DNA of 22,789 nucleotides from a virus. Below the pieces are notes generated by a model, which was given only the letters and a program-made list of their open reading frames with translations, made no database searches and was not told the DNA's origin. Shown in pieces: positions 1 to 19,853 of the stretch. Both the position numbers and the translations under genes were made by a program. How positions within the stretch are numbered: the first letter of the stretch is position 1; each line of letters starts with the position of its first letter. The DNA lies in the IMG/VR virus record IMGVR_UViG_3300042090_000844, positions 1 through 22,789 of that record. One strand, given 5' to 3'.

Positions 1-1098
1 CGGCGCGACCTGCTGCGCCAGAATCTGCTGCGCGGTCTCGGCGACGTAGACGTAGGCCTGGGAGGGCCCGTTCGGCGAGACCGCCGCCAGCGACAGAGTG
101 GTGCGCGCTGCGAGAGCGGCGTTGCTCTCCCAGTTGTTCCCGCTCCACCCGTTCACGTTCGAGACGAAGATCCCAGTGTTCTGGGTCACGGCGATCGTCA
201 CCGTGTTGGGCGCCGCGCTCCCGCCCGTCCCTGCCGCGTCGGCGCTCATCGTCGCCTGCGTCGTCGTGTAGACCGTGCCAAGGGGCGACGGGGCGGACGC
301 CGAGAGCGAGCCCGACGTGATGACGCCGATCGTGAACGTCGTGGTGGTCGTGGCGATGACGGCCGCGAACACGCCGGGCGTGGACCCTGCGCCAGACAGG
401 CCCGAGTATCCCGAGGTCGTAGGGACGGACACGAAGACGACCTGGCCAGGAGTGAGGCCGTGCGCGCTCTGAGTCGTGATGAGCGTCTGGGTCCCGAGGG
501 GCGTGACCGCCGTGACGTTCCCGCCGCTTCCTGCGATGGCCCCGCTCGGGATGCTCAGCGTGGCCGAACTCGAGTACGTCGCGCCCGTCTGCGCGTTCGC
601 GGCGTGGTACGCCTTCGGTGCGTACGGGCCGACCGCGCTCCCCTTGATGTTGACGATCGAGAGCGCGCCGGTCGCGTAACCCGCAGCAAGGCGCGTAACC
701 CCGTAGACGCTTTGCGTAAGGAGATCGAGCCACCCCGGGGCACCCGAGGGGTTCTGCGCGGCGTTGCTCGGGTCGGGCGTGACAGGCACCACGAGCGTCG
801 TGCCGTTCGTCGCCGTGGTCGTGACGGTGCCCGTCGCGGCGGTCTGCAGGAACCCGCCTTGCGCGATGATCGAAATATTCACGTCCGAGCTCTGGAACTG
901 CACGGACTCGATCGCGAAGATCGTTCGCTCAGGTCCGCCGCTCTGCCATGCGGTCGTGGGCAGCTGGGCCAACGCCGCGAGCTGCAGCATGTTCGCGAGC
1001 CACGAGCCGGGGGGCGCCGCTCCGGCGGGAACCTGGCCGTAAGGCCCGACCCCGCTCGGTGCCGGCGTGAACAGGTCTGCAGCAGTGAGCATCGTCAT
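1..1098 (-). CDS. Baseplate J-like protein (Mu gp47-like), C-terminus cut by the window edge
   Basis: The reading frame is open from an ATG at 1098 to base 1 (366 codons, no stop), so the C-terminus lies outside the window. The ATG overlaps the stop of the preceding wedge gene (ATGA). The visible part resembles baseplate J/gp47, which forms the outer wedge of contractile-tail baseplates. Supporting features are a helical N-terminus of about 60 residues, then beta-rich sequence, and near residues 290-350 a glycine-rich turn, a NWESNAALAARTTLSL stretch and a YVYVAETA stretch, typical of the J family. Around residues 195-260 there is an inserted beta module containing SAHGLTPGQVV, resembling the FCCH-like modules of two other tail proteins here. 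Its place directly after the gp46-like gene matches Mu order. The family call is fairly sure; the insertion's function is unknown. Confidence 0.8.
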   Translation of the reverse strand, partial: MTMLTAADLFTPAPSGVGPYGQVPAGAAPPGSWLANMLQLAALAQLPTTAWQSGGPERTIFAIESVQFQSSDVNISIIAQGGFLQTAATGTVTTTATNGTTLVVPVTPDPSNAAQNPSGAPGWLDLLTQSVYGVTRLAAGYATGALSIVNIKGSAVGPYAPKAYHAANAQTGATYSSSATLSIPSGAIAGSGGNVTAVTPLGTQTLITTQSAHGLTPGQVVFVSVPTTSGYSGLSGAGSTPGVFAAVIATTTTTFTIGVITSGSLSASAPSPLGTVYTTTQATMSADAAGTGGSAAPNTVTIAVTQNTGIFVSNVNGWSGNNWESNAALAARTTLSLAAVSPNGPSQAYVYVAETAQQILAQQVAP

Positions 1099-1520
1099 GC
1101 GGGGGCCACCAGTAGCAGGGTCGGCGTGACGTCCACCACGCTGACAACCATCTTGAACGGACCCGCGGATGTCTGCACCTGCGCGGCAACCATGAGCACC
1201 CCCGCGATCGTGAGCGAGACGGAGACCGTGCACCGCTGCACGCGCTCATCCTTCTCGGCCTCGGCCCCGAGTTGCTGCTGCCATCGGTCGATGTCCGAGG
1301 GGGACAGGTCCGAGTTGACGGAGTCGGTGACGTTCCGTCCAAAGTTCGGGTCGTCGATGAGTCCGCCGCTGTTCGTCGTCCAGCGTCGGAGGATGGCTTC
1401 GGCAACGCACTGGAAGCCCGAGGCCCAGTAGGCGGGCATCGAGAGGCTCTGTCCGTTGGGCGTGCCCCAGCACGTGCCGAGGTTGAGCGGCGCGGGAGTA
1501 GGAGGAAGGGGGAAGCTCAC
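1095..1520 (-). CDS. Baseplate wedge protein, gp46 / GPW-gp25-like
   Basis: This 141-aa protein starts at a GTG (1520) that overlaps the stop of the upstream 595-aa gene as GTGA. The central segment GGLIDDPNFGRNVTDSVNSD, followed by a helix and by EKDERVQRCTVSVSL, matches the pattern of small baseplate wedge proteins (T4 gp25, P2 W, Mu gp46). These have an early aspartate/glycine turn, then a helix, then a DxRV-type strand. Wedge proteins join the sheath-initiating part of the baseplate to the J-like protein, which is the next gene. The N-terminus (about 30 residues, Pro- and Gly-rich) is longer than I expect and the C-terminus is a hydrophobic strand ending in APA. The larger open frame upstream in this phase only shadows the neighbouring gene. 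The call rests on pattern and position. Confidence 0.72.
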   Translation of the reverse strand: MSFPLPPTPAPLNLGTCWGTPNGQSLSMPAYWASGFQCVAEAILRRWTTNSGGLIDDPNFGRNVTDSVNSDLSPSDIDRWQQQLGAEAEKDERVQRCTVSVSLTIAGVLMVAAQVQTSAGPFKMVVSVVDVTPTLLLVAPA

Positions 1521-3304
1521 GCGGCCACCGGCATGAATGCGCCGAGCGCAAGCGCGCTCGCCTCCGATGTTGCGCCTAGCACGAGCGCAGAGCAAGCGCC
1601 TCCGGTGACGACGGAGAGCGCGGGACCCAGGTCGCTCCCCGGTCCCGACCACACGTACACGTCCACCTCTCCAGTCCCCAGCCCGAGCTGCGCGCCAATC
1701 TCCCCCGAGAGCTTTCCGATCACGGCGATCTGCGCGGCGATTCCTGCCTGCGCGCTCACGGTGAGGTTCGGGAGTTTGGCGGAGAGGTTCGCCTTCAGGT
1801 TGAGCAGGATCTTGGCCATGAACACAAGCATGAGCGGTGGGAAAGACGGCACGATCTGCGCGGAGAACTTCACGTTGAGCGCCGCGGCCTGCTTTTCGAG
1901 GTTGGCGAGCAGGTCCGCGAGGGCCTGGAACGATGCACCGAACGCTGCGCCGATCGTGGTGGAGCTCGCGACGAGTCCCGACACGGGAAAGCTCACCCCC
2001 GAGGCAAAGAGCGGCAGACCCGCGAGCGAGCCGCCGCCCATCACGACACTCCCGACGGCACCTGAGCCCGTGCCCTGCGCACTCCCGCCCGAGTACGTGC
2101 CGTAGCTCGCGACGGGGAGAGAAAACGCGGTGTCGTAGTAGAGGGCCACCGTCGTCGGCGCGAGCACCTTGCAGGAGAAGGGCCCCACCAGGTTCCCAAC
2201 AAGCGTGGCTCCGCCTGCGTAGACGCCCTCGCCGGTGGACGGGAGAGAGTACGCGGCGTCCTGGTAGAGTGCCACGTGGGTCGCGTCGATCGCCTGGCAG
2301 TACCACGAGCCGTTGAGGCCCGACGACGATGGCTCGGCACCCGAGATGGTGCACGAGTAGAGCCCGGTCGCGCTCGCGACCTGCAGAACGATCGGGGATG
2401 TCGCCGTGGCGCCCAGGACGGGCGTGGAGCCCGTGACGCCCGGAAAGGTCAGAGAGACCCCATCGCCGACGGGGACACCCAGAGCGTCCGGCAGCGTGGC
2501 GACGATCGGGGTCGTCGCGGAGAGCGAGACGAGTGGAGCCGAGTCCACGATCGAGACGGTCGGAGGCGACGCGTAGCCATCCCCCGCGCCGGTCACGTTG
2601 ACGGACGCGGCGCCGATGCCCGTCGGCGTGGAGCTCGACGGCGTGACCGTGACCGTTCCCGTCGCGGTCACGCCTCCTGGGGGCGCTGGGGAGAACGAGC
2701 ACGAGGCGAGCCCCTGGGTATACGTCTGCGGCGGTGGGCTGAGCGAGGACGGGATCGATGGGGTCGTCGGTGGCTGGGGCGGGAGCGGGGGCGGCTGGAG
2801 CATCGTGACGCTCTGCACGGTCCCGGGGCCGCTCGTGCCGGTCGACGTGGCCACGAGCACCACCGCGGTCACACTGGAGCTCGACGGAGTCCCGTCGGGC
2901 CACCCCGACGCGAGAGCCCCGGACACCGCAGCGCTGAGGCCCGTCGAGGCGCCCACATAGGCCAGGACGTCGAGGCTCGCACCGACGGTCGCGGCCACGA
3001 GCGCCTTGAGCGCCACGATGAGCGCCAGCACGATGCCGAGCTGGAGGTTGAGGCAGACCTGCAGGTTCGCGGTGACGTTCGGGATTGGGAACGTGAGCAC
3101 GTTCTGCCACATGACCGCGAGGCTCGCGAGAAGCGCGATCGAACCCGCGATCGAAGGGAACGAGAGCGACACGCCGAGCGATAGGGAGAGCGCGATGAGA
3201 CCGGAGAGTTGCAGCGCGAGGTCGAACGCGACGGCGAGATAGATCGCGAAGAGCGGCGCGCACAGCACCGAGATCGGGATCGTCGTCTTTGCCCCGAGGC
3301 TCAT
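1517..3304 (-). CDS. Unusual 595-aa hydrophobic tail/baseplate protein with internal duplication
   Basis: I do not recognise a named family. The ATG at 3304 overlaps the previous stop (ATGA); upstream in-frame starts would overlap the hub gene. Layout: long hydrophobic segments at about residues 11-65 and 85-115; a Pro/Ser-rich linker at about 155-215; beta-rich modules at about 255-410, including two tandem copies of a unit ending in YAGG or YSGG; then another hydrophobic helical region at about 460-595. Residues ~41-153 and ~476-579 look like diverged copies of one domain: both have a Pro-Asn-(Val/Leu)-Thr motif (75-78 and 512-515), then a hydrophobic helix, then a (L/V)DV strand (111-113 and 547-549), then a V/L-rich strand ending Ala-Thr-Ser. 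The gene occupies the slot of the Mu gp45 spike, between a gp44-like hub and the gp46-like wedge. A baseplate spike or membrane-contacting role is inference from position. Confidence 0.6.
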   Translation of the reverse strand: MSLGAKTTIPISVLCAPLFAIYLAVAFDLALQLSGLIALSLSLGVSLSFPSIAGSIALLASLAVMWQNVLTFPIPNVTANLQVCLNLQLGIVLALIVALKALVAATVGASLDVLAYVGASTGLSAAVSGALASGWPDGTPSSSSVTAVVLVATSTGTSGPGTVQSVTMLQPPPLPPQPPTTPSIPSSLSPPPQTYTQGLASCSFSPAPPGGVTATGTVTVTPSSSTPTGIGAASVNVTGAGDGYASPPTVSIVDSAPLVSLSATTPIVATLPDALGVPVGDGVSLTFPGVTGSTPVLGATATSPIVLQVASATGLYSCTISGAEPSSSGLNGSWYCQAIDATHVALYQDAAYSLPSTGEGVYAGGATLVGNLVGPFSCKVLAPTTVALYYDTAFSLPVASYGTYSGGSAQGTGSGAVGSVVMGGGSLAGLPLFASGVSFPVSGLVASSTTIGAAFGASFQALADLLANLEKQAAALNVKFSAQIVPSFPPLMLVFMAKILLNLKANLSAKLPNLTVSAQAGIAAQIAVIGKLSGEIGAQLGLGTGEVDVYVWSGPGSDLGPALSVVTGGACSALVLGATSEASALALGAFMPVAA

Positions 3305-4488
3305 CCGCCGATCCCCAGGAGCGAAGAGCCCGTCTGAATGGTTCCGATCCCCGGCGTTGTGCAGGTGAGGAGCCCGATGAACGGCTCTGTTGGGATCGGG
3401 AGCCCTTGCAGTCCAGAAATCTGCATCGCGGGCGGAAAGACGATCACCACCGTGTCCCCTACCCGCGCCGCGGCGGGTGCGCTCGACGACTGCGGGCAGA
3501 GCGTGACGGAGACGGGCCCCACGCTTGCGTCTGCCTCGGTCCACACGCACACGGGTCGCGCTGGGCTCCCGTTGATGAACTGCAGATGCGCGAGGCCTCC
3601 GCTTGGCGCGGTGTAGCTCGCGATCGAGGACGACAGGAGCGGAACGTTCTGAATCTCAGGCAGGCCGATCGTCGGGTCCGTCGGCGCGAGGTCCACGGTG
3701 GTCGGCGTCGGGTTGGAGATGCTGTACTCATAGCGGCCGTAGAACCTCGTCCCCGCCGTCTCGCTCTGCACGAAAACGCGAAGGGGGCCGACGAACCTGT
3801 CCGCGCTCGCGGGGTCGGTGAGCACCTGGAAACGGAACTTCCCGTCGGGGTCCCACTCGTACTCGACGCCGCCGGAAGTATACGCCTGGTCCAGGATCGG
3901 GTGCGAAAACGAGGTTCCTGGCATCCACGACGCGTAGTCCTCGGTGGCGATGGTGACGCGTCCGTGGTCGGGGCGCTGCTCGGTCGGGGTGAATGGCGTG
4001 TTGATGGTGGATGCCGGCCACGCCCGCGTCTGCGTCGTGCCAGTCGCGTCGATGTACCACGCGGGTATCCACCCGAACTGCACCGCCTGATCGAGCAGAA
4101 GGCTGGCGAGCCCGTCTCCCCGCGCGAACCCATTGCCGATGGTCGTCGGCGCTCCGGTCACATTGATCGTTTCGCCCACCGAGGTCGCGGCGTCCTGAAG
4201 CACCGTCGCGAGCGAGATGCCCCCGGCCGACCCGTACCCTTGCGGTGTCGTGTTCTTTCGCCACCCCGCCGCGCCCGCGACGATGCGCGCCTGCGTCTGC
4301 CCTCCGTACGCGCTCGAGCGGTAGACCGTCCCCTGCAGTGTCAGGTTGCCGATCACCACGGTGACCGCGCCCGAGAGAGCGTTGGCTACCTGGAGCGCGA
4401 CGTCGGCAGTCCATGGGCCCGTCGCGGGGATCATGAGGCGCCCCGACACGATCGGGAAACCCGCGACGGAGGAGAAGGGGCCGCTCAT
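3301..4488 (-). CDS. Tail hub/baseplate protein in the Mu gp44 (P) position
   Basis: This 395-aa, largely beta-strand protein starts at an ATG overlapping the preceding stop (ATGA). The N-terminal ~50 residues (SGRLMIPATGPWTADVAL and a following strand-rich stretch) look like a tail-hub first domain. The middle (about 90-150) has a region that could be the second hub domain, with ISLATVLQDAATSVGE and FGWIPAWYIDATG. The C-terminal third is an OB-like beta region containing ARVGDTVVIVFPP. Hub proteins of contractile tails close the tube at the baseplate and carry the spike. The assignment rests on gene order (tape measure, gp43-like, this gene, spike slot, gp46-like, J-like) and general fold impression rather than a decisive motif. 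It could also be a spike-hub fusion. Confidence 0.5.
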   Translation of the reverse strand: MSGPFSSVAGFPIVSGRLMIPATGPWTADVALQVANALSGAVTVVIGNLTLQGTVYRSSAYGGQTQARIVAGAAGWRKNTTPQGYGSAGGISLATVLQDAATSVGETINVTGAPTTIGNGFARGDGLASLLLDQAVQFGWIPAWYIDATGTTQTRAWPASTINTPFTPTEQRPDHGRVTIATEDYASWMPGTSFSHPILDQAYTSGGVEYEWDPDGKFRFQVLTDPASADRFVGPLRVFVQSETAGTRFYGRYEYSISNPTPTTVDLAPTDPTIGLPEIQNVPLLSSSIASYTAPSGGLAHLQFINGSPARPVCVWTEADASVGPVSVTLCPQSSSAPAAARVGDTVVIVFPPAMQISGLQGLPIPTEPFIGLLTCTTPGIGTIQTGSSLLGIGG

Positions 4489-5129
4489 GGTGTCGCCGTC
4501 GGGGAGAAGTTGTTGGTACCGCCACTCTGGTATCCGGCGATCTGATTCTGCAGCGCCGTGATCCGCGGGTCCTGGTTTGCGGGCTGGTTGCTGAACGTCG
4601 ATGCGTCATCGGCGTCGAGGCTGGTGGACGCGACCGTTTGCACGATGCTCGTCGCCGGCGGCGGGCTCCACTCGATGATCTGGATAGTGACGTGAAAGAC
4701 GCCCCCGGGCTTTTGCGGGACGGGCCCGGTGTAGTTCTCGACGACGACGACCGTCAGCCCGATCGACGCGTGCCCCGGGTAGTACCAGGAGAGCCCGTTT
4801 GCTTTCTGGTCCTCGCGCGAGATGCTGAGCACCGCGAACACGAACGCGTCCCACGCGGCAAAGTCGGCCGCGGTCACGAGTTGCATCGTGACCGTCCCCC
4901 CTACGGGCGGCTGGTCCTTGAGGATCAACTGTGCCCCCGCGGTTCCCTTTCCGGCCTGAATGTCCCACCCGGTCTGACGCTTGAATCCCTGCAGCCCGCC
5001 CGGGACGACGATGGTCCCTGGCAGCGAGACGCCGGATAGCTTCGGCGCAAGCCACGGGTTCTGCCCGACGTCGTAGCCGACGCTGACCGTAGTCAGCGGC
5101 GGGAGGAGCGTCGGCTGCGGAGAGCTCAC
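4485..5129 (-). CDS. Tail protein following the tape measure (Mu gp43/N or gpU position)
   Basis: The 214-aa product starts at an ATG overlapping the tape-measure stop (ATGA). It opens with a Pro-rich tail, then strands (GWDIQAGKGTAGAQLILKD, VTMQLVTAADFAAWDAF) and a short HVTIQIIEWSPPP strand, and ends in a low-complexity Asn/Ser/Gly-rich tail of about 55 residues. The alternating beta pattern suits a small tail-tube-related or baseplate adaptor protein, which is what normally follows the tape measure in Mu- and P2-like phages. No catalytic motif is visible. A structural tail role is likely; the precise subunit is not settled by the sequence. Confidence 0.5.
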   Translation of the reverse strand: MSSPQPTLLPPLTTVSVGYDVGQNPWLAPKLSGVSLPGTIVVPGGLQGFKRQTGWDIQAGKGTAGAQLILKDQPPVGGTVTMQLVTAADFAAWDAFVFAVLSISREDQKANGLSWYYPGHASIGLTVVVVENYTGPVPQKPGGVFHVTIQIIEWSPPPATSIVQTVASTSLDADDASTFSNQPANQDPRITALQNQIAGYQSGGTNNFSPTATP

Positions 5130-6799
5130 GCGCCCCTCGCAAGCTGTAGTCGCTCGATGGCGGCAGCAAAGCCGCTCATGCTGAGCTGCTGCGCGTCGGT
5201 CACTCCGGCTGCGGCGTGCACGTGGATCTCGATGTTGCCGTGCACGTGGATGCCGCCGTCCCCTCCCCCGACGGGAACGATCTGTTCTCCGGGCGCGACG
5301 GACGCAAAGAACTCGCCCGGCGCGGGGGCGTGGATGACCCCGCCGTCCGCGTGGGCCCGGTGTCGCTGGATCGTGGCCGTGCCGCTCGGGGCCTCGTTGC
5401 CAGGCGAGCCCGAAGCGCCCGACGATAGCTCGATGCCGCGCGGCGCGTCCGGTTCCGTCCGCTGCGGCGAGAGTCCGAGCGCATCCATCCCGCGCTTGAA
5501 CGCGTTGTCGTCGTCGATGCTGGCCGCGTGGAGCGGATTGACGCCGTCGAGCGTGCTCTTGACGCGAGAAAGCAAGTCCACCAGCTCTTTTGCGTCGTCG
5601 ATCACCTCGCGCACACCGTCGACCACGCCGCGAACGTCGACGTCAAAAAACTGCTGAATCGCGTGCTTGTGTTCAAGATAGAACACCTCCACCTCGAGGC
5701 CCGCCACCTCGGCTTCCGTCACGAGCGACGCGAGCGCCTTGATGGCCCCGTTGACTCCGGTCGTCACGCCGTCCTTGAGCCGATCGCCCGACGGCTGCCC
5801 TTCGTCTCCGAGATGGATCACGCTCTGGATCGCGTCGGTGAGCGGAGCCGTGTCAACGTCGTCGAAAAGGTGGCGAAGGGTCTCCTTCCCCTTGGCCCGC
5901 AGCGTGGCGATCTCGTCGCCCATCGCTTCGAGGGAGCCCTTTCCCTTCTCGATCAGGGTGTCGGACAGGGCGTTGCCGAACGCGACTGCGTCGACGGTGC
6001 CCGCCTTGAGGCCCGCGGCGAGCTGCTCCGTCGTCATCCCGATGGCGCTCGCCACCTCGGTGACGTTCAGCCCCGCCTCGTAGAGACCTTTGAGGCTCTT
6101 CTCGGCGAGCTTCAGTCCCTTGTGTTCCTCGATCGCGACGCGCACGCGCTCGGTGATCTTCTGGTAGGCCGCCGCCCCCTCGTCGCCCATGACGGCCTGC
6201 GCGGACGCCGTCGCAAGGATCTGGTGCCGCAGCTCGTCGAGATTGGTGATCCCCAGCGCCTCAAACTGCTTGGTCCACGTGGCAAGCTGCTCGCGCGTCT
6301 GGGGGAGCTGCGTCGAGAGCCTGTCCAGGAAGTCGAGCGTGCGGTCGCCGCTCCCCTCCCCCTGCGACCCGAGCGCCTCGAATGTGGCGACCAGGCGCCG
6401 GTTCGTCTCCGTGACCTCCAGCCCCGTCGTGACGGCGATCTCTCCGATGTGGTAGAGCGCGTCGGCCGACGCGACGGCCCCGACCGCGAGCACGGACAGG
6501 GCCGCTCCGGCCCCCGCGAACTCGGGACCGCCCGCGGCAACGGCGTCGTTGGCAGCCTTGGCGTCGAGCGCGAGACCGCGCTGTTCGAGGCGGAGCCCAG
6601 CGATGTCCTTCGCGCGAGCCCGGCCGATCGATCTCTCCGCCTCGCTGTCCCCGAGCTCGTGCTGCAGCTTCTGAAGGCGGAGCAGCTCACGCTCGTTCTC
6701 CCGCATGGTGGCGGTCAGGTCGCGGACCGCAGCGGACGCCTTGGTGGCGCCGGGCGTCACCTCGTCGATCAGCTGCACTCCGAGCCTGAGAACGTCCAC
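5126..6799 (-). CDS. Tail tape measure protein
   Basis: The 557-aa protein begins at a GTG (6799) with AAGGGG about eight bases upstream, and comes directly after the assembly chaperone genes. The N-terminus (about 20-75) is a charged, coiled-coil-like helix (ERELLRLQKLQHELGDSEAE). A hydrophobic Gly/Ala patch follows at about 90-115, then long helices to about 430. The C-terminus is Gly/Pro-rich and ends in a His-rich strand (GGIHVHGNIEIHVHAAAG) seen at the C-termini of many tape measure proteins. The family sets tail length and is threaded in the tube lumen. At roughly 1.5 angstrom per residue, 557 residues would give a tail of about 80 nm, which is an estimate only. The neighbours (chaperone upstream, hub genes downstream) strongly support the call. 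Confidence 0.85.
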   Translation of the reverse strand: MDVLRLGVQLIDEVTPGATKASAAVRDLTATMRENERELLRLQKLQHELGDSEAERSIGRARAKDIAGLRLEQRGLALDAKAANDAVAAGGPEFAGAGAALSVLAVGAVASADALYHIGEIAVTTGLEVTETNRRLVATFEALGSQGEGSGDRTLDFLDRLSTQLPQTREQLATWTKQFEALGITNLDELRHQILATASAQAVMGDEGAAAYQKITERVRVAIEEHKGLKLAEKSLKGLYEAGLNVTEVASAIGMTTEQLAAGLKAGTVDAVAFGNALSDTLIEKGKGSLEAMGDEIATLRAKGKETLRHLFDDVDTAPLTDAIQSVIHLGDEGQPSGDRLKDGVTTGVNGAIKALASLVTEAEVAGLEVEVFYLEHKHAIQQFFDVDVRGVVDGVREVIDDAKELVDLLSRVKSTLDGVNPLHAASIDDDNAFKRGMDALGLSPQRTEPDAPRGIELSSGASGSPGNEAPSGTATIQRHRAHADGGVIHAPAPGEFFASVAPGEQIVPVGGGDGGIHVHGNIEIHVHAAAGVTDAQQLSMSGFAAAIERLQLARGA

Positions 6800-6803
6800 C
6801 GTG

Positions 6804-7360
6804 TCACCCCTTCGAAAGAGAGCGAAGCGCGAGTCTGAGCCGAATCAGCGTCTCGGCTACGAGCTCGGCTGCGGCTGCGCCATCAGGACTGAGGGCGGGC
6901 CGATCAGCGTCGGTGCGCGCACCTCCTCCGAGGGCGCACCAGGAGAGCCACTCTCCGAGGCCTTGCGCATGCGGTCCAGGGCGGCACTCCTGATGCTCAC
7001 GCCTTTTCCCAGATCGAGCTCGATCTCGCTCTCGAACATCCCGGCGAGCGAGCGGAGCGCGGCGGTGAATTTGGGATGCGCGACGATGGCCGGACGCTCT
7101 CGGAGGAACGCTAGCCAGGACAGGCGCACGCTCTCGCCGGTGTCCGTCGGGACGTGTCCGTCGATGGCCACGATCGTCTCGTTGGCCAGGTTGTCGTCGC
7201 GCTGCGACTGCTCCGCGGTCCCCTCCTTGCGGCGCCACGCGGCGATCTCCTCGCGCGTCGGTCGGCGAAAAACGAACTCTCGTCCGTCGAACTGTACCAC
7301 GGCGATCTTTCCGTGCCTATCGCGGAGTTGCACCAGTTCCGCCTCGTTCAGCTGTCCCAT
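6804..7360 (-). CDS. Probable -1 frameshift product of the tail assembly chaperone gene (185 aa)
   Basis: In the chaperone gene the codons CTG GGA AAA contain a perfect X XXY YYZ heptamer (GGGAAAA, 7010-7004). After a -1 slip the reading frame stays open for 66 more codons and stops at 6804, five bases before the tape-measure start. The fusion would share the first 119 residues with the 167-aa product and carry a different C-terminus that includes EWLSWCALGGG and AAAAELVAETLIRLRLALRS. Tail chaperone genes of many phages (lambda G/GT, P2 E/E', Mu 41) make such paired products, and the same gene order is present here. The extension also fills the otherwise unusual 57-base gap before the tape measure. 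Codon use in the extension is less GC3-rich than in the zero frame, so a non-functional slip site is not excluded. Confidence 0.6.
6857..7360 (-). CDS. Tail assembly chaperone, zero-frame product (lambda gpG / Mu gp41 analogue)
   Basis: The 167-aa protein sits between tail tube and tape measure, the fixed place of tail assembly chaperones, which hold the tape measure while the tube polymerises. I chose the ATG at 7360, with GGTGG just upstream; a GTG at 7369 would add three residues. The N-terminus resembles tail chaperones, with a short beta segment (KIAVVQFDGREFVFRRPTREE) followed by helices (ERPAIVAHPKFTAALRSLAG). The C-terminus, Pro/Ser-rich and ending in QPQPSS, is probably disordered. 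The gene is preceded by a 77-base gap, unlike its coupled neighbours, so it has its own ribosome binding site. A slippery heptamer lies at codon 118-119. Confidence 0.75.
   Translation of the reverse strand: MGQLNEAELVQLRDRHGKIAVVQFDGREFVFRRPTREEIAAWRRKEGTAEQSQRDDNLANETIVAIDGHVPTDTGESVRLSWLAFLRERPAIVAHPKFTAALRSLAGMFESEIELDLGKGVSIRSAALDRMRKASESGSPGAPSEEVRAPTLIGPPSVLMAQPQPSS
7004..7010 (-). promoter_or_regulatory. -1 ribosomal slippery heptamer GGGAAAA
   Basis: Read on the minus strand the zero-frame codons are CTG GGA AAA GGC, so G GGA AAA has the correct phase for a tandem -1 slip. GGGAAA-type heptamers are the classical sites of lambda-like tail chaperone frameshifts. A 16-base perfect palindrome abuts the heptamer on its 5' side (7011-7026). 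I saw no convincing pseudoknot just downstream by eye. Confidence 0.65.
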
Positions 7361-7437
7361 CAGAGCCACCAGGGGTTAGAAGGTGGCCGCCAGGACGTGA
7401 CGGCGTGGAGGGTCGCTCCGGTGCCTCAGAGGATGCC

Positions 7438-7929
7438 TCAGATCGGCACGCCCTGCAACGGGTCGTTCGAGTCCTCGAGCCCGTTGAACTTGATCTTGGT
7501 GGGGTTGAACTCGATGGTGCGGGTGAGGGCCTTGTTTCCCTCCTGATCGTCCGCTTCCGTCGTGTCCATGGTGCAGTTGATGATCACGTCGGTGTAGGTC
7601 GGTAGGTTCACTCCGCCGTAGCTGACCATGGCCGTGAAGGGCTGGTCTCCGTAGCCCGCCCCGATCGCGACGAGCTTCTGCATCAGCACCGCCCACCAGT
7701 CGAGGTAGGCAGTGATGGAGAACTGGTACTTGTTCGTGCCCAGCGTCTTCGCGACGGCATCGACGTTGTTGCTCATCGCCATCTCGCGCGAGCGAGTACG
7801 CGAGCGCTTCACGGCCGTGAAGCCGCCGCTCATCTCGAACCCGGCCAGGTTGAGCGACGTGATGTGCCCGAAGGATCGGATCACTCCGTTGGTAACCGGG
7901 ATCTGTAGGGGGGTCACCTGAGCGCTCAT
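7438..7929 (-). CDS. Tail tube protein (Mu gpM-like)
   Basis: The 163-aa protein starts at an ATG overlapping the sheath stop (ATGA). Its size and place directly after the sheath are those of contractile-tail tube proteins. These form the inner tube of stacked hexamers through which DNA passes. The sequence suits the small beta-barrel tube fold: strands such as KYQFSITAYLDWWAVL, QPFTAMVSYGG and YTDVIINCTMDTTEADDQEG, and a C-terminal strand (LTRTIEFNPTKIKFNGLED) typical of the last strand pair. No membrane or catalytic motifs are seen. The stop lies in a short direct repeat (GCCTCAGA twice, 7423-7442), after which 77 bases pass before the next gene. Confidence 0.75.
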   Translation of the reverse strand: MSAQVTPLQIPVTNGVIRSFGHITSLNLAGFEMSGGFTAVKRSRTRSREMAMSNNVDAVAKTLGTNKYQFSITAYLDWWAVLMQKLVAIGAGYGDQPFTAMVSYGGVNLPTYTDVIINCTMDTTEADDQEGNKALTRTIEFNPTKIKFNGLEDSNDPLQGVPI

Positions 7930-9515
7930 TGCGCACCTCCGTAGGCGATGCTGATCGTTTCGGACACCGTGTTGACGTATCCGCGTGGCTGGACGGCGAC
8001 GGTGATGGGGATCGCGCCGGTAGCCTGCACGTTCGAGGTGACGATCGTCCCCGTCACGCTCGACACGGCCCCGACCGCCACGAGGCCGGCGTTGAGCGCC
8101 TGCTGCAGCCCCTGCTGTAGCTGCTGCTGATCGGCCGCGTTGAGGGTTCCGTTGGGCTGCAAGAGGAGGTCGTCGGACACCTCCTGGATGCCGAACGCGG
8201 CTGCGATGTCACATGCCGCGTCGAGCGCGTTACCGATGACGAGCTCGGTGAACTGGGAGCCGGCCGCGGAAAGGAGCGGCTCTCCGCCGTTGTTCCCGCT
8301 CGGCGCGGACCCGCCCTGGAAGAAGCCCTGGCCCTTGAGGGGAACGGTCCACGCGCTCGCGACGCGTCCCGCGGCGAGGCCGGGGGTCACGCGCTCGTCG
8401 TGGTAGACGAACCCATCCGTAGGGTCTGTCGCGGGGTTCACCAGGATTGCGGGCTCGGGGCCGGTGCCGTAGGGGCCGTCCTTCACGCGCCCGGCGCGCC
8501 GCTGGAGGGGGATGGTGGTGCGCTTTGCCGCGTGCGCCCACGCGAGCGGACGGCGGTACACCGGCTGACCGAACGCCGCATTCGCGTACGGGCTCGGGAT
8601 GTTGTAGTAGCCGCCGTCCGCGCAGACGCGAGGCGCCGTGGTCCCGGCGAGCGCGGTCGTCAGCGCGGAGATCCACGTGGCCTCTGTCTCGGTCGAGCCG
8701 CCCCACGTCGTCCCGCCACTGATGCCCGTCGTCCCGCCCTGATCGCGCAGTTCGACGATGCACCGATCGAACTGGAACGACGCGACTCCGGCTTGCACCG
8801 CCGTCTGAATCGAGCCGACGTCGCCCGACGCGCACGGCCCGACGACGTGCATCGAGCCGACGCCTGCGACGCCGTACTGCGAGGCCTGGAATGCCGCGAA
8901 CGCCGCCGTGAGGCCCGCATCATTCCAGAGCGGGGGCGTGGTGCCGAACTGCCACGTGTCGCCGACCGACATGGTCTGCGCGGACGTAAACGAGAGCCGC
9001 AGCCCCGTCCCGCCGACGGCCACGGTGTTCAGGGGAGCGCCGAGGTCGACCGTGGTGGCCGACCCGAGGCTGATCGGGTTGCCCCAGTTGCGCCCCGCGT
9101 CGCCGGACACAATGATCGACGGTCCCGGCGCGGTGCCGATCGTGCCTGGCACGACGCACTTGACCTTGACGTAGAACTGATCCCAGGCGCCGTAGGTCGA
9201 GTCGACCACGACCGTCATGGCCGCGTTCCCGACGTTCGAGAAGCCAGCAACGACTGCGGCGGCTGCGCCCTTCGTGACCACGGGCACGGACATCGCCACG
9301 CACACGTTGCCGGTCTTGCAGACGAGCCCACCCGACTCGACGAGCGGCCCGCCCGTGAACTGCGTCTGCAGCGAGACGGGGCTCGTGGTCGCGTACGGCT
9401 GATTGACCGTGCCGCCGATCGCGATCCCGCACTTGAACTGGACGTTCTGCGACGGGACCGAGAGCGCGGCGGACACGCCGTTGTCCTGCACCGTCACCTG
9501 AAGAATTGCGGTCAT
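7926..9515 (-). CDS. Tail sheath protein of a contractile tail (gpL-like)
   Basis: The 529-aa protein starts at an ATG overlapping the previous stop (ATGA). It is called a sheath from its size, its place before a small tube gene, and the C-terminal quarter, where sheath proteins have their conserved polymerisation domain. Here that includes DGFVYHDERVTPGLAAGR, a region with FTELVIGNALDAACDIAAAFG, a long Gln-rich helix (ADQQQLQQGLQQALNAGLVAVG), and a final strand stretch (AIPITVAVQPRGYVNTVSETI). The N-terminus is a beta-rich domain with several Gly/Val stretches. Sheath subunits wrap the tube and contract on infection, so the phage is a myovirus. The family resembles the DUF2586-type sheaths more than the Mu protein, as far as I can judge by eye. 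Confidence 0.75.
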   Translation of the reverse strand: MTAILQVTVQDNGVSAALSVPSQNVQFKCGIAIGGTVNQPYATTSPVSLQTQFTGGPLVESGGLVCKTGNVCVAMSVPVVTKGAAAAVVAGFSNVGNAAMTVVVDSTYGAWDQFYVKVKCVVPGTIGTAPGPSIIVSGDAGRNWGNPISLGSATTVDLGAPLNTVAVGGTGLRLSFTSAQTMSVGDTWQFGTTPPLWNDAGLTAAFAAFQASQYGVAGVGSMHVVGPCASGDVGSIQTAVQAGVASFQFDRCIVELRDQGGTTGISGGTTWGGSTETEATWISALTTALAGTTAPRVCADGGYYNIPSPYANAAFGQPVYRRPLAWAHAAKRTTIPLQRRAGRVKDGPYGTGPEPAILVNPATDPTDGFVYHDERVTPGLAAGRVASAWTVPLKGQGFFQGGSAPSGNNGGEPLLSAAGSQFTELVIGNALDAACDIAAAFGIQEVSDDLLLQPNGTLNAADQQQLQQGLQQALNAGLVAVGAVSSVTGTIVTSNVQATGAIPITVAVQPRGYVNTVSETISIAYGGAQ

Positions 9516-10399
9516 ACGACGGGCTCCATGGTGAACACGACGGGGTCAGTGGAGCCGGGATTGACGGGCTCGACGGTGAACTGCAGCGAGAGCGGGGACG
9601 GGACGAAGCTTGCGAGGGTCGGCCGGTCAACGGGCTGCTGGATCTCAACGATGCCGGCCCAATGCTGTCCCGCCTGCGTCTGCGAGCCGGCGCCGACAAC
9701 CTGCGACGGCCACCACTCCTTCAGGAGCTTGATGCCCGCGCCCTGCGCGTCGAAGAGCGTACCCCATAGTGCGTCTCGCAGGTTCGTGGTCGCATCGAAG
9801 TCTCCGAAGTCAGGGTCTGGAGGGGTCGCGCGGCCGTAGACGTGCACCTCGAACGTCGTGTGCGCGGTCGCAAGTCGCGGATTCTGCCGCTGCGCCTGCT
9901 GCTCGAGCGTGCCGCGTCCGTACGGGGAGGCGAACGTCATGTTCGCGCCCCCGCTGGCCTCGAGCCCCCACTCCCGACCGGCCATGGGCACGAATACGAC
10001 GCGCGGGCTCGCCACCGCGGGGGCGTTGTCGACGTGGCGCCTGCCGAGTCGGATTCCGAAGTCGGGGAACGCGACGGCGATCTGCCCCCCGCCGGTGTAC
10101 GCGTTGACGCCCACGACGGGCGTCACGATGCCCTGGGCGGACACCGAGTACAGCGCGAAGGTGTTGGGGTCGACGACCGTGAACACGAACAAGCCGTTGG
10201 CCTCGGGCATCCCGCCGACGCCTGAGGATACGCCGTGCACTGGCTGGCCCGGAGGTACGCCGTGAGATGGCGACGTCACGGTGACCGGGGTGGTCGTGGT
10301 CGCCCCGGTGATCGGGAACGGCGTGCCGAACGTCTGGCCCGCATTGATGAGCACCGACGTCAGGTTGAGGGACAACAGCGTTACGAGCGCGCCGATCAT
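9512..10399 (-). CDS. Probable tail terminator/neck protein carrying an FCCH-like beta module
   Basis: The 295-aa product starts at an ATG (10399) overlapping the stop of the gpG-like gene (ATGA); the longer in-frame extension upstream is a shadow. It lies immediately before the sheath, where tail terminators or neck proteins are found. The second half fits such a protein: a TTFEVHVYGRA strand, a helix LRDALWGTLFDAQGAGI, and a strand WAGIVEIQQPVDRP. The first half carries an extra beta module at about residues 33-105 containing SHGVPPGQPV, a FVFTVVDPNTFALY strand and a YTGGG turn. That pattern matches FCCH-like modules in phage tail proteins and recurs in two other genes here. The terminator role is inferred from order and shape only. 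Confidence 0.55.
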   Translation of the reverse strand: MIGALVTLLSLNLTSVLINAGQTFGTPFPITGATTTTPVTVTSPSHGVPPGQPVHGVSSGVGGMPEANGLFVFTVVDPNTFALYSVSAQGIVTPVVGVNAYTGGGQIAVAFPDFGIRLGRRHVDNAPAVASPRVVFVPMAGREWGLEASGGANMTFASPYGRGTLEQQAQRQNPRLATAHTTFEVHVYGRATPPDPDFGDFDATTNLRDALWGTLFDAQGAGIKLLKEWWPSQVVGAGSQTQAGQHWAGIVEIQQPVDRPTLASFVPSPLSLQFTVEPVNPGSTDPVVFTMEPVV

Positions 10400-10836
10400 G
10401 TGGCCCCCACAGCGCGAGCCTCGTGCGAGACCGCGGCGCCGATGGCGTCGCGCCACGAGCGCGGCATGTCTCGCGAGGGAAGGGTGGGGCGAGCGGGCCC
10501 ATCGCCCTGCGGCCCGCTCCACCCCGTCTGGTGAGGCGCTCCGGGGTGCGGGATGTAGATGGCCACGCCCGCGTACTGCGTCGGCGTGACCGTGCTCCCG
10601 AGGCGCATCGCACCCGTGTCGGTCAGCGGGGGGAAGTGGCGACCCTTCGCGATCGTGGCTTCCGCGAGCGGTTCCCACGGTTCGCCGTACGGGTCGTGTC
10701 CGCCCTCGTACTCCGCCTCGATCAGCGCCTCGAGCTCGAGAGCGACCGTCGCCGCCGCACGAGACGGGATGCGCGCAAGATCCTCGATGCGGTCGGCGAG
10801 ACGGCCCATGCCGCCGATGTCTCCACGCCACGTCAT
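10396..10836 (-). CDS. Phage virion morphogenesis protein (Mu gpG-like) / tail completion
   Basis: The 146-aa product starts at an ATG (10836) overlapping the stop of the 100-aa gene (ATGA). The order is a helical N-terminus (ADRIEDLARIPSRAAATVAL), a region with DPYGEPWEPLAEATIAKG, then a beta part (LTDTGAMRLGSTVTPTQYAG, VAIYIPHPGAPHQTGW) and a helix ending SWRDAIGAAVSHEA. This is the layout of Mu gpG / phage virion morphogenesis family proteins (PF05069-like), in which WEPLA, LTDTG and ARPTLPSRD-like stretches are characteristic. Members act at the head-tail neck or in tail completion. The match is by pattern recognition. Confidence 0.7.
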   Translation of the reverse strand: MTWRGDIGGMGRLADRIEDLARIPSRAAATVALELEALIEAEYEGGHDPYGEPWEPLAEATIAKGRHFPPLTDTGAMRLGSTVTPTQYAGVAIYIPHPGAPHQTGWSGPQGDGPARPTLPSRDMPRSWRDAIGAAVSHEARAVGAT

Positions 10837-11135
10837 CGCGGCCCGCCTCCGGGTCCGGGGTTGAGCGGCACGCGGTACATGACAGGCGCCTTGAGGCCCA
10901 GCACCGTGGCGGTCGACGTGCTCTTGACGAGCTTCGTTGCGATGTAGACGTAGGAGCCGGACGCCACGTTGAACAGCCCGGTGTCGGTGCCGACCAGTGT
11001 GACGAGCTCGAGCTGCCCGCCGCCCGTCACGTAGAGCGATGCGAACGGTCCGTTCGCATCCGAGCCCGACGCTGCGGGCGTGACGGCGCACGCGTCCTCG
11101 TAGACGATGCAGGTGACGATCGTTGCGCCGGGCAT
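10833..11135 (-). CDS. Small neck-region protein of unknown function (100 aa)
   Basis: I do not recognise a family. The ATG overlaps the stop of the DUF1320-like gene (TGATG), and the gpG-like gene starts at its own stop (ATGA), so it is translated within the coupled operon. It looks like a small beta protein: strands at about 5-12 (IVTCIVYED), 33-36, 41-48 and 60-68, with a Pro/Gly-rich tail. Three short Gly/Ser/Asp-rich turns connect them. Position between the head-tail connector and the morphogenesis protein suggests a head-closure or decoration role, which is only inference from order. Confidence 0.55.
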   Translation of the reverse strand: MPGATIVTCIVYEDACAVTPAASGSDANGPFASLYVTGGGQLELVTLVGTDTGLFNVASGSYVYIATKLVKSTSTATVLGLKAPVMYRVPLNPGPGGGPR

Positions 11136-11641
11136 CAGCCGACCCTCGGGGGGGAGGCGTAGCGATTGGTCCAGCCGCGCGGGGCGGTGGTGAGCACCTG
11201 GGGCACGTCGTGGATCGGGTCACCGGGCTCTGGGGGAGCTATGGTGATGTCCGGGTGGATGCGCTGGGTCTGGATTCCCGGGAACCATCCGGGGTGGATG
11301 TAGCCGGGGTTATCCGGGTCGGGGCCGCCCATCGCCTCCGCGTACCCGCGGCGCACGTTGCGATCGGATCCGGCCTGGCCGGCCCACCCGATGATCCGAT
11401 CCATCACGAGGTAGTAGACCATCGCGGCGGTCCTGCTCATGATGTCGTTGCCCACGGCGATGCACGGCAGGGTGTACCGGCCGCGCAGATTCGAGTCGGC
11501 CAGCTCGGTCGCGTCGAGGCACGCCTGCTGCCACTGCGCGGGGGTCGCGAGCGCGAGCACCTGCGCAGGGATGTACTGCGCCAGATACCCGGGCCCTGTT
11601 GGGCTCGAGTACTGGACGTAGGGCAGGCCGCCGACGAGCAC
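11135..11641 (-). CDS. Head-tail connector, DUF1320 / Mu gp36-like
   Basis: The 168-aa protein starts at a GTG (11641) with GAGGG seven bases upstream; the capsid stop is nine bases before it. The core (about residues 28-105) fits DUF1320/gp36: LATPAQWQQACLDATELADS, then NLRGRYTLPC and GNDIMSRTAAMVYYLVMDRI, i.e. a helical bundle with the LRGRY-type motif and a long hydrophobic helix. Such proteins form head-to-tail connectors in Mu-like phages. The C-terminal 55 residues (Pro/Gly-rich, IHPGWFPGIQ) are extra and probably disordered. Its place right after the major capsid gene agrees with Mu order. Confidence 0.75.
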   Translation of the reverse strand: MLVGGLPYVQYSSPTGPGYLAQYIPAQVLALATPAQWQQACLDATELADSNLRGRYTLPCIAVGNDIMSRTAAMVYYLVMDRIIGWAGQAGSDRNVRRGYAEAMGGPDPDNPGYIHPGWFPGIQTQRIHPDITIAPPEPGDPIHDVPQVLTTAPRGWTNRYASPPRVG

Positions 11642-18526: not shown

Positions 18527-18751
18527 TCACTTCTGGCACACCCAGTACCCGCCCCCGTCCGTGCCCGTCGGCAGAAACACGCACCCCACTCGGTCGGGTC
18601 GCGCGTCGCCGCAGTTGTCCACGAAGTCGCTCGCGTCGTAGTAGACGCATCCCCCCGCATCACGCGGTGGCGTGGACACGTCGGGCTCAGCGTCGATGGG
18701 CGCGGACGCCGACGAGCACGCGGCGAGCAGCAGGAGTAGCGCGGGCCTCAT
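18527..18751 (-). CDS. Small Cys-rich lipoprotein (74 aa)
   Basis: The ATG at 18751 overlaps the GroES-like gene stop (ATGA); the in-frame extension to 18880 is a shadow. The first 12 residues are a very short signal: an Arg at position 2, then a Leu-run and the lipobox Leu-Ala-Ala-Cys (9-12). After that come Ser/Ala/Pro/Asp-rich residues to about 34, then a compact C-terminal domain with four cysteines (35, 47, 57, 72) that could form two disulfides. It is probably lipidated and displayed in the host envelope. Phages carry such lipoproteins as superinfection-exclusion proteins (for example T5 Llp, similar size) or as outer-membrane spanins. A spanin usually lacks such Cys pairs and sits in a lysis cassette, which is not present here. 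Function is not settled. Confidence 0.7.
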   Translation of the reverse strand: MRPALLLLLAACSSASAPIDAEPDVSTPPRDAGGCVYYDASDFVDNCGDARPDRVGCVFLPTGTDGGGYWVCQK

Positions 18752-19170
18752 CGGCAGTCCGCCCCCGCCGCCAACCACGGCCTGCTCGTGTCGCCCTGCG
18801 CTTGCACGAGCTGACCGTCCTCGATCACCGCGTCGATCTCGCGCTGGGCCCGAACCACGCACACGCTGCCATCGGTCCACGTGAGCCGAGAGCCCTTCTC
18901 GGTGCTCTCGTAGTGAAACTGCACTACGTCGCCGACCTTGAACCCGTGCGCGATCTCGTGCCCCTGCGACGTGAGCACGGGCGGACCCATCGCGAGGACG
19001 CGGCCCCGGTGCGTCTTCTCGGAGTACTCACGGTACTCGCCGTCGCCGATGTGGACGTAAGGGTCGATGATGACGCTCGATGCGTGCTCGGCGATCGGAA
19101 GGATGACGACGCGGCCGCGCAGGCAATGCAGTTTGCCGCCCGCGCCCCACCAGGCTCCCGGTTCGCTCAT
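18748..19170 (-). CDS. GroES-like co-chaperonin (140 aa)
   Basis: The ATG at 19170 overlaps the glycosyltransferase stop (ATGA); the frame upstream of it is a shadow. Residues ~19-116 follow the GroES plan: strand GRVVILPIAEH (19-29), a long loop with SSVIIDP (31-37) standing where the mobile loop and its hydrophobic IVL tripeptide occur, then GRVLAMGPP (56-64), the VGDVVQF strand (79-85) and the final EIDAVIED (111-118). The loop between is longer than in bacterial GroES (about 20 extra residues). Phage co-chaperonins such as T4 gp31 replace GroES to let GroEL fold the large capsid protein. Here a similar role for the gpT-like capsid protein is plausible. The C-terminus adds a Gln/Ala/Trp tail of about 20 residues. 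Confidence 0.8.
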   Translation of the reverse strand: MSEPGAWWGAGGKLHCLRGRVVILPIAEHASSVIIDPYVHIGDGEYREYSEKTHRGRVLAMGPPVLTSQGHEIAHGFKVGDVVQFHYESTEKGSRLTWTDGSVCVVRAQREIDAVIEDGQLVQAQGDTSRPWLAAGADCR

Positions 19171-19853
19171 TTCGTCGCTCCTTCGATGTCTCGCCCCGAC
19201 CAAGCCCGTGACCCTGCGTGGAACATTAGATTGCCCTTTCCCTGGTAGATGTCGCACGAGCCGCCCAACTCCCGCCAGCGGCGGGAGAAGGAGTAGTCCT
19301 CGCTCGTGAGCAATATCTCGCCTTGCACCTGCTCGTACAGCATGCCGAAAATGTTGGGCACGAGGTCGGTGGCCGGCCGATCGACGTAGCGGATCACGTC
19401 CTTGGCCGCGCTCATTCGCTCCAGCATCGAGCGAGAGCAGAGCGAAAACCCGAGCCCGACGCCGAGCACGGTCGACACCTCGGGATCATCGGTCGCGGAC
19501 ACTTCCTCGGTGCGCAGGACCCAGCGCACCGGCTCGCGCTTGTTCGTGTACGGCACCGAGATGAAGTCGAGGCCCTTCTCGATCAGGCGGCCGATCACGG
19601 TCACGTCGGCTGGCCACGTGTCGTCGTCCCACCACAGTAGGTGCGTGAAGTCGTGTTCGCGGAGCGCTCGGGCGACGACGCGATTTCGGGCGCGCACGAC
19701 GTCAAGCCCGTAGGCGACGAACGTGTCCGCGGAGAACAGGTGAGACGCTGCGCGGACCGCTTCGGCGTACCCCAGAGAGACCTGCGCACACATCGGATCG
19801 CTCGACCGCACCGGAGTCGCGATCAGGAGTCGCGCGGAGCCGGGAGAACTCAA
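19167..19853 (-). CDS. GT-A fold glycosyltransferase, phage-encoded
   Basis: The 228-aa protein most likely starts at TTG 19853, whose TTGA overlaps the stop of the small HTH gene. A later ATG (about 19790) would remove the LLIATPV strand that begins the GT-A fold. Motifs follow in order: LLIATPVR (9-16), VVRARNRVVARALRE near residues 53-67, then THLLWWDDDTWP with the metal-binding acidic triplet, VPYTNKREPVRW, GFSLCSRSMLERM, and near the C-terminus SEDYSFSRRWRELGG (candidate catalytic acidic pair) and a late His-Ala-Gly. This is the pattern of nucleotide-sugar glycosyltransferases. The acceptor could be virion proteins, phage DNA or a host envelope glycan. No sugar-nucleotide synthesis genes are present, so the donor must come from the host. 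Confidence 0.78.
   Translation of the reverse strand: MSSPGSARLLIATPVRSSDPMCAQVSLGYAEAVRAASHLFSADTFVAYGLDVVRARNRVVARALREHDFTHLLWWDDDTWPADVTVIGRLIEKGLDFISVPYTNKREPVRWVLRTEEVSATDDPEVSTVLGVGLGFSLCSRSMLERMSAAKDVIRYVDRPATDLVPNIFGMLYEQVQGEILLTSEDYSFSRRWRELGGSCDIYQGKGNLMFHAGSRAWSGRDIEGATK

Follow-up and report, generated by a model that had tools for sequence, protein, structure and literature searches.

The stretch of DNA analysed here, referred to as the window (IMG/VR virus record IMGVR_UViG_3300042090_000844, one metagenomic contig of 22,789 bases), carries a gene that is best read, with a probability of about 0.93, as a tail assembly chaperone gene of the lambda G/GT type in a Mu-like contractile-tailed phage. 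On this reading a -1 slip at an in-phase GGGAAAA heptamer gives products of 167 and 185 amino acids (aa), and the end of the shorter product is a run-on of the ordinary frame. The slip site, its phase and the open -1 frame are present in the window, and both site and frame are conserved in relatives. The features of the region were as follows.

5126..6799, minus strand: tape measure protein gene (phrog_167, E 2.6e-6), with a GTG start at 6799
6804..7004, minus strand: -1 frame T domain, 66 aa plus stop, second part of the 185-aa GT-like product
6857..7003, minus strand: 0-frame run-on tail, 48 codons plus stop, overlapping the T domain
6857..7360, minus strand: 0-frame ORF of the tail assembly chaperone, G-like product of 167 aa, with the conserved N domain at about residues 1-118
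6936..6996, minus strand: candidate stimulatory stem of 10 outer pairs (6996-6987 with 6945-6936), 7 nt past the heptamer
7004..7010, minus strand: in-phase slippery heptamer G GGA AAA, which the relatives L071-L074 also have at this place
7438..7929, minus strand: probable tail tube gene, called from its position and from homologues that are syntenic in relatives
7926..9515, minus strand: tail sheath gene (tblastn against the annotated tail sheath of Thermus phage Riverbug, E 4e-5)

The minus-strand genes lie in a Mu-like order of large terminase, portal (Portal_Mu), S49 protease, capsid (gpT), gp36-like protein and sheath, followed by the probable tube, the chaperone gene, the tape measure and the baseplate. 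The chaperone gene sits between tube and tape measure, the tube being assigned through synteny only; the tube gene was without a match in the family searches. Elsewhere on the same strand, a GroES-like domain gene was observed at 18748-19257 (phrog_3188, E 3.1e-6; Cpn10 just below the Pfam cut-off). Codon usage revealed two places where the longest listed ORF was not coding throughout: 1095-3550, where it followed 3550-1517 and then the frame of 1095-3263, and 9512-11223, where it followed 11223-10396 and then 9512-10831. These frame changes are probably ordinary gene borders. The ORF 11223-10396 matched phrog_26, tail completion/neck.

The 0 frame of the chaperone gene starts with ATG at 7360 and stops at 6859-6857; with translation starting instead at the in-frame GTG at 7369, both products would be 3 aa longer. 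This ORF is supported by the N-domain HMM across relatives and an AlphaFold model in which the pLDDT of the N domain was mostly above 80. Read from the ATG at 7360, the frame passes through the heptamer as CTG GGA AAA GGC, which is X XXY YYZ in phase. In the -1 frame, 66 further codons are open up to a stop at 6806-6804, and the tape-measure GTG starts 4 bases past this stop. The gap between the 0-frame stop and that GTG consists of 57 bases (6856-6800). The first-pass annotation had read the gene as a tail assembly chaperone gene with programmed -1 frameshifting from the same heptamer, open frame and gap, and its coordinates and product lengths were confirmed.

Scans of viral contigs with the single tube, chaperone, portal and tape measure proteins returned no relatives, nor did tblastn of tube and chaperone in phage records. 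Distant relatives came from portal-based searches, and the N-domain HMM located the chaperone gene in many of them. The N-domain alignment search gave matches in 20 of 377 genomes of the phylum to which the genome holding L017 (a Myxococcales MAG) belongs; another genome search covered almost the same genomes. A sheath scan yielded 18 further contigs, close relatives among them, and the chaperone gene was found in 16; L077 and L078 gave no chaperone match, and their stored DNA stops soon after the sheath. A total of 51 relatives were tabulated after L059 and the minus-strand ORF of L014 (both not chaperone-like), L048 (off the contig end), L061 (a diverged copy) and identical duplicates had been dropped; these are not all independent, since near-copies (L044/L047/L060/L064/L066, L056/L063, L079/L081 and L005/L016) were counted apart.

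The four closest tail modules, L071-L074, share 53-58% identity with the window in the sheath and 47-55% in the tube. All four retain the in-phase GGGAAAA at the same place with an open -1 frame, and the window -1 frame was 42-48% identical to their T domain by tblastn (E 1.4e-8, 4.7e-8, 1.6e-5 and 0.007). The comparison of related phages suggested by the first-pass annotation, whether heptamer and shifted frame are kept, thus came out in favour of its frameshift. In comparisons of identical T-frame residues, different codons were used in 23 of 75 cases close to the slip, in 26 of 54 midway and in 118 of 177 beyond the overlap, which indicates that the T frame is conserved as a protein and that silent sites are constrained near the heptamer; this constraint fits an overlapping frame or an RNA signal. 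The T-domain model contained helices at 16-24 and 40-64.

Against the broad family, the fit of the window T frame was weak: 51 of 2000 shuffles, and later 14 of 4000, scored as high or higher, and in pairwise comparison 27 of 1000 and 51 of 1000 did so. A hidden indel inside the T domain was considered on account of this weak profile fit and was dropped because, in the -1 frame, the tblastn matches of L071-L074 cover almost all of it. The -2/+1 frame after the slip in the window contained stops, and the T domain of the relatives is homologous to the -1 frame. Comparison with L002 gave 57-74% identity for portal, terminase and capsid and 25-32% for sheath and tube, head genes being held in common and the tail far diverged; the window is a mosaic relative to L002/L006 and L071-L074, with its tail module nearer to L071-L074.

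Across the tabulated set, 32 of the 51 relatives had a slippery heptamer in phase where the N domain ends, the spot homologous to that in the window (GGGAAAA in 13; GGGAAAG, GGGAAAC, AAAAAAA, AAAAAAG, GGGGGGG or AAATTTT in the rest), a count that includes the ambiguous L046, whose -1 frame of 137 codons is not T-like. A further 13 of the 51 had A AAA only, with no canonical heptamer, and six continued in the +1/-2 frame. Of the 45 relatives of the -1 type, 34 had a tape-measure-like start close to the end of the -1 frame (-4 to +7 bases); among the others, the nearest such start was 27-60 bases on in five and none was found in six.

Several variants of this arrangement were observed. In L076, L079, L081, L083, L084, L085 and L087, the N domain ends with A AAA and then a stop (TAA, TGA or TAG), and the -1 T frame is open and T-like without a canonical heptamer; this suggests single-tRNA slippage on A AAA with the stop in the A site. 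L004 (Riverbug), L005 (MMP17), L016, L049, L051 and L057 have their T domain in the +1/-2 frame and not in the -1 frame, which means that homologous members of one family differ in the direction of the shift. In L014, L044, L047, L060, L062 and L064-L069, the chaperone ORF has two tandem N-domain matches and the slip site follows the second (examples: G303:C28:8946-9260 and 9405-9608; G002:C200).

The near-equal length of the two products results from the 48 codons by which the 0 frame extends beyond the slip. An early 0-frame end after the slip, a usual but non-essential trait of the lambda G/GT type, is therefore absent in the window; in 40 of the 45 relatives of the -1 type the 0 frame stops at most 5 codons past the slip. 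The distance to the stop is 15 codons in L073 and L074, 19 in L075 and 28 in L071 and L072. In L071-L074, the 0-frame stop is a TGA formed by CTG-ACN (Leu-Thr) of the T frame; in the window, both aligned Leu codons are CTC, so that neither TGA exists, and a 9-residue insert adds further codons. The run-on thus probably reflects the loss of TGA stops that hinge on the Leu codon chosen in the T frame, and we infer, as the order of events, that the stops were lost in the lineage of the window. The first-pass annotation had described the shift as swapping C-termini rather than adding a domain. This description did not hold, as the -1 frame adds the T domain of the relatives and the length of the run-on varies among the window and its closest relatives. 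For comparison, the average slip-to-stop distance is 26 nt in the SEA-PHAGES training set and 36 nt in the Xu phages, and cases with larger distances are noted as missed, in PMC10885494. Long 0-frame run-ons in these chaperone genes were not found described in the titles and abstract openings that were searched.

It is also conceivable that the frameshift is real and both C-termini, of near-equal length, are functional, in which case the dual-coded 0-frame tail would be selected and slippage would exchange this disordered, Pro/Ser/Ala-rich tail for the T domain. We regard this as unlikely. The 0-frame tail is at least 15 codons long throughout the near clade (window and L071-L075), where its beginning shares the pattern GKG[VA][ST]xR[PS], and identity in the 0 frame falls from 0.42 over the first 14 columns to 0.26 beyond the overlap. 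This conserved beginning could, however, come from T-frame or RNA constraint; the tail varies between 15 and 48 codons and diverges in sequence after about 8 codons, AlphaFold predicted it with low confidence as mostly disordered apart from one short helix, and no such tail exists in the 40 relatives with an early stop. Based on its variable sequence and the low AlphaFold confidence, we take the 0-frame tail to be a run-on rather than a functional alternative C-terminus.

Codon usage across the overlap was evaluated with a table built from 11 well-framed genes. The 48 N-domain codons upstream of the heptamer scored +19.7 in the 0 frame, and the 48 codons past it scored +3.9 (0), -15.3 (-1) and -47.5 (+1), compared with medians of 22.2 in-frame, -33.9 (-1) and -31.6 (+1) for single-coded gene segments. 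A gap between the 0 and -1 frames as small as that of the window was seen in 1.2% of 3890 single-coded segments. The codon usage of the T frame in the window was poor (third-position GC 0.64), a point against the frameshift reading. The scores past the heptamer fit an overlap in which both frames are coding, and their lean to the 0 frame is a point for a selected tail.

An accidental overlap, in which only the 0-frame product is made and GGGAAAA is a chance run, appears very improbable. An open frame of this length can occur by chance in GC-rich sequence (GC 69%). The site, its place and the T-frame protein are nevertheless conserved in relatives, and heptamers are strongly concentrated at this position of the gene: 24 in-phase heptamers in 210 codon positions were found in the last 6 codons of the chaperone gene of 35 relatives, against 3 in 3908 positions elsewhere in its last 120 codons. 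At chance level, 14 window ORFs contained 19 in-phase XXXYYYZ heptamers in 5782 codons, YYY being AAA or TTT in 4 of the 19, and GGGAAAA occurs a single time in the window when both strands are counted.

Equally little credence can be given to a single gene broken by an assembly error or to two genes with separate starts, for although the window is one metagenomic contig and relatives are annotated as two genes (e.g., Mx4_p57 and p58), many separate contigs and prophages have the break at the corresponding position, the -1 frame upstream of the slip has non-coding codon usage (with a table that included two wrongly framed ORFs), and the T frame of the window contains no ATG, GTG or TTG after the slip, for which reason its independent initiation was rejected.

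The RNA downstream of the heptamer was also evaluated. The spacer of 7 nt between the heptamer and the candidate stem is usual for -1 stimulators; such a stem at a spacer of 4-9 occurred at 2.3% of window positions, and the 70-nt fold was among the most stable 5%. The 104-nt fold downstream of the heptamer was unremarkable (z -0.87). The four close relatives showed no excess fold stability (z -0.79, 0.54, 0.10 and -0.46) and did not have the stem in common, and a conserved stimulatory RNA was accordingly left unsupported. The stem of the window is a possible stimulator and was not counted as evidence for the frameshift. Immediately 5' of the heptamer, 7026-7011 (minus strand) forms a perfect 16-nt palindrome, AGATCGAGCTCGATCT, which gave a 6-pair hairpin when folded; it was not seen in L071, the sole relative inspected by eye.

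Standard family libraries gave faint signals for this protein. The window N domain matched phrog_344, a tail assembly chaperone family, weakly (E 0.014 and 0.0075), and it had no match to Pfam DUF6848 (PF20941) at E 0.01 or better. Foldseek analysis of the N-domain model against PDB gave no strong match; 3fgx came first, the tail assembly chaperone of HK97 (2ob9) second and YqbN (3klu) sixth, the last two with weak E-values. Both 3fgx and YqbN are phage-like chaperone relatives. In BFVD, nothing was found at E 0.001 or better, and named tail assembly chaperones appeared at ranks 12, 24 and 37. Among the 12 aligned N domains of alignment A3, eight matched Pfam DUF6848 (best E 8.2e-7) and eight matched PHROG 20303, 'minor tail protein'. 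It is probable that proteins under either label are tail assembly chaperones with a frameshift.

Compared with lambda G/GT, whose heptamer is GGGAAAG, the window has the gene in the same place between tube and tape measure, a -1 slip that occurs on GGGAAA followed by a purine, where the N domain ends, and adds a T domain, and a -1 frame that ends at the tape-measure gene. It differs in belonging to a contractile-tailed, Mu-like phage, in having no clear sequence similarity to the lambda system and in a 0 frame that continues for 48 codons instead of stopping near the slip. In Myxococcus phage Mx4 (p57/p58; L003), the N domain is homologous, an in-phase A AAA AAA lies at the homologous place and the -1 frame is open into a T domain ahead of the tape measure; unlike in the window, the 0 frame stops 2 codons past the heptamer, and the two parts are annotated as two hypothetical proteins. 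The window shares Mu-like head genes and gene order (Portal_Mu, gpT, gp36) with phage Mu, and the first-pass annotation had named Mu 41 as a further -1 case. This needs correction, as Mu genes 41/42 use -2 frameshifting according to the review PMC5009743, whereas the window uses -1. The same review covers lambda G/GT and the roles of its products, states that G-T frameshifting in tailed phages goes -1, -2 or +1, and mentions P2, whose E/E' is by description a similar case, a myophage chaperone with -1 frameshifting.

We infer the slippage, its rate and the functions of the proteins as follows. Most ribosomes would stay in the 0 frame and produce the 167-aa G-like product, and a minority would slip by -1 on G GGA AAA and produce the 185-aa GT-like product. 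This longer product would join the conserved N domain to a helical T domain that ends just before the tape-measure gene. By analogy with lambda, the N domain may bind the tape measure protein and the T domain may recruit tube subunits. The early 0-frame stop that is normal in the chaperone family is missing in the window, which would make the long tail a run-on; the two TGA stops of the relatives would hinge on the T-frame Leu codon, as CTG followed by AC gives TGA and CTC does not.

The predicted frameshift of the window is a divergent example of a well-known mechanism, and its sole oddity is the long overlap in the ordinary frame. Comparison with relatives supports -1 frameshifting in a divergent chaperone family hardly recognised by standard libraries, and the analysis links Pfam DUF6848 and PHROG 20303 to frameshifting tail chaperones. 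One family includes members with canonical heptamers, members with A AAA next to a stop and members that continue in the +1/-2 frame, and thus offers a natural series for asking which slip sites are effective and whether it is important that the 0 frame stops early.
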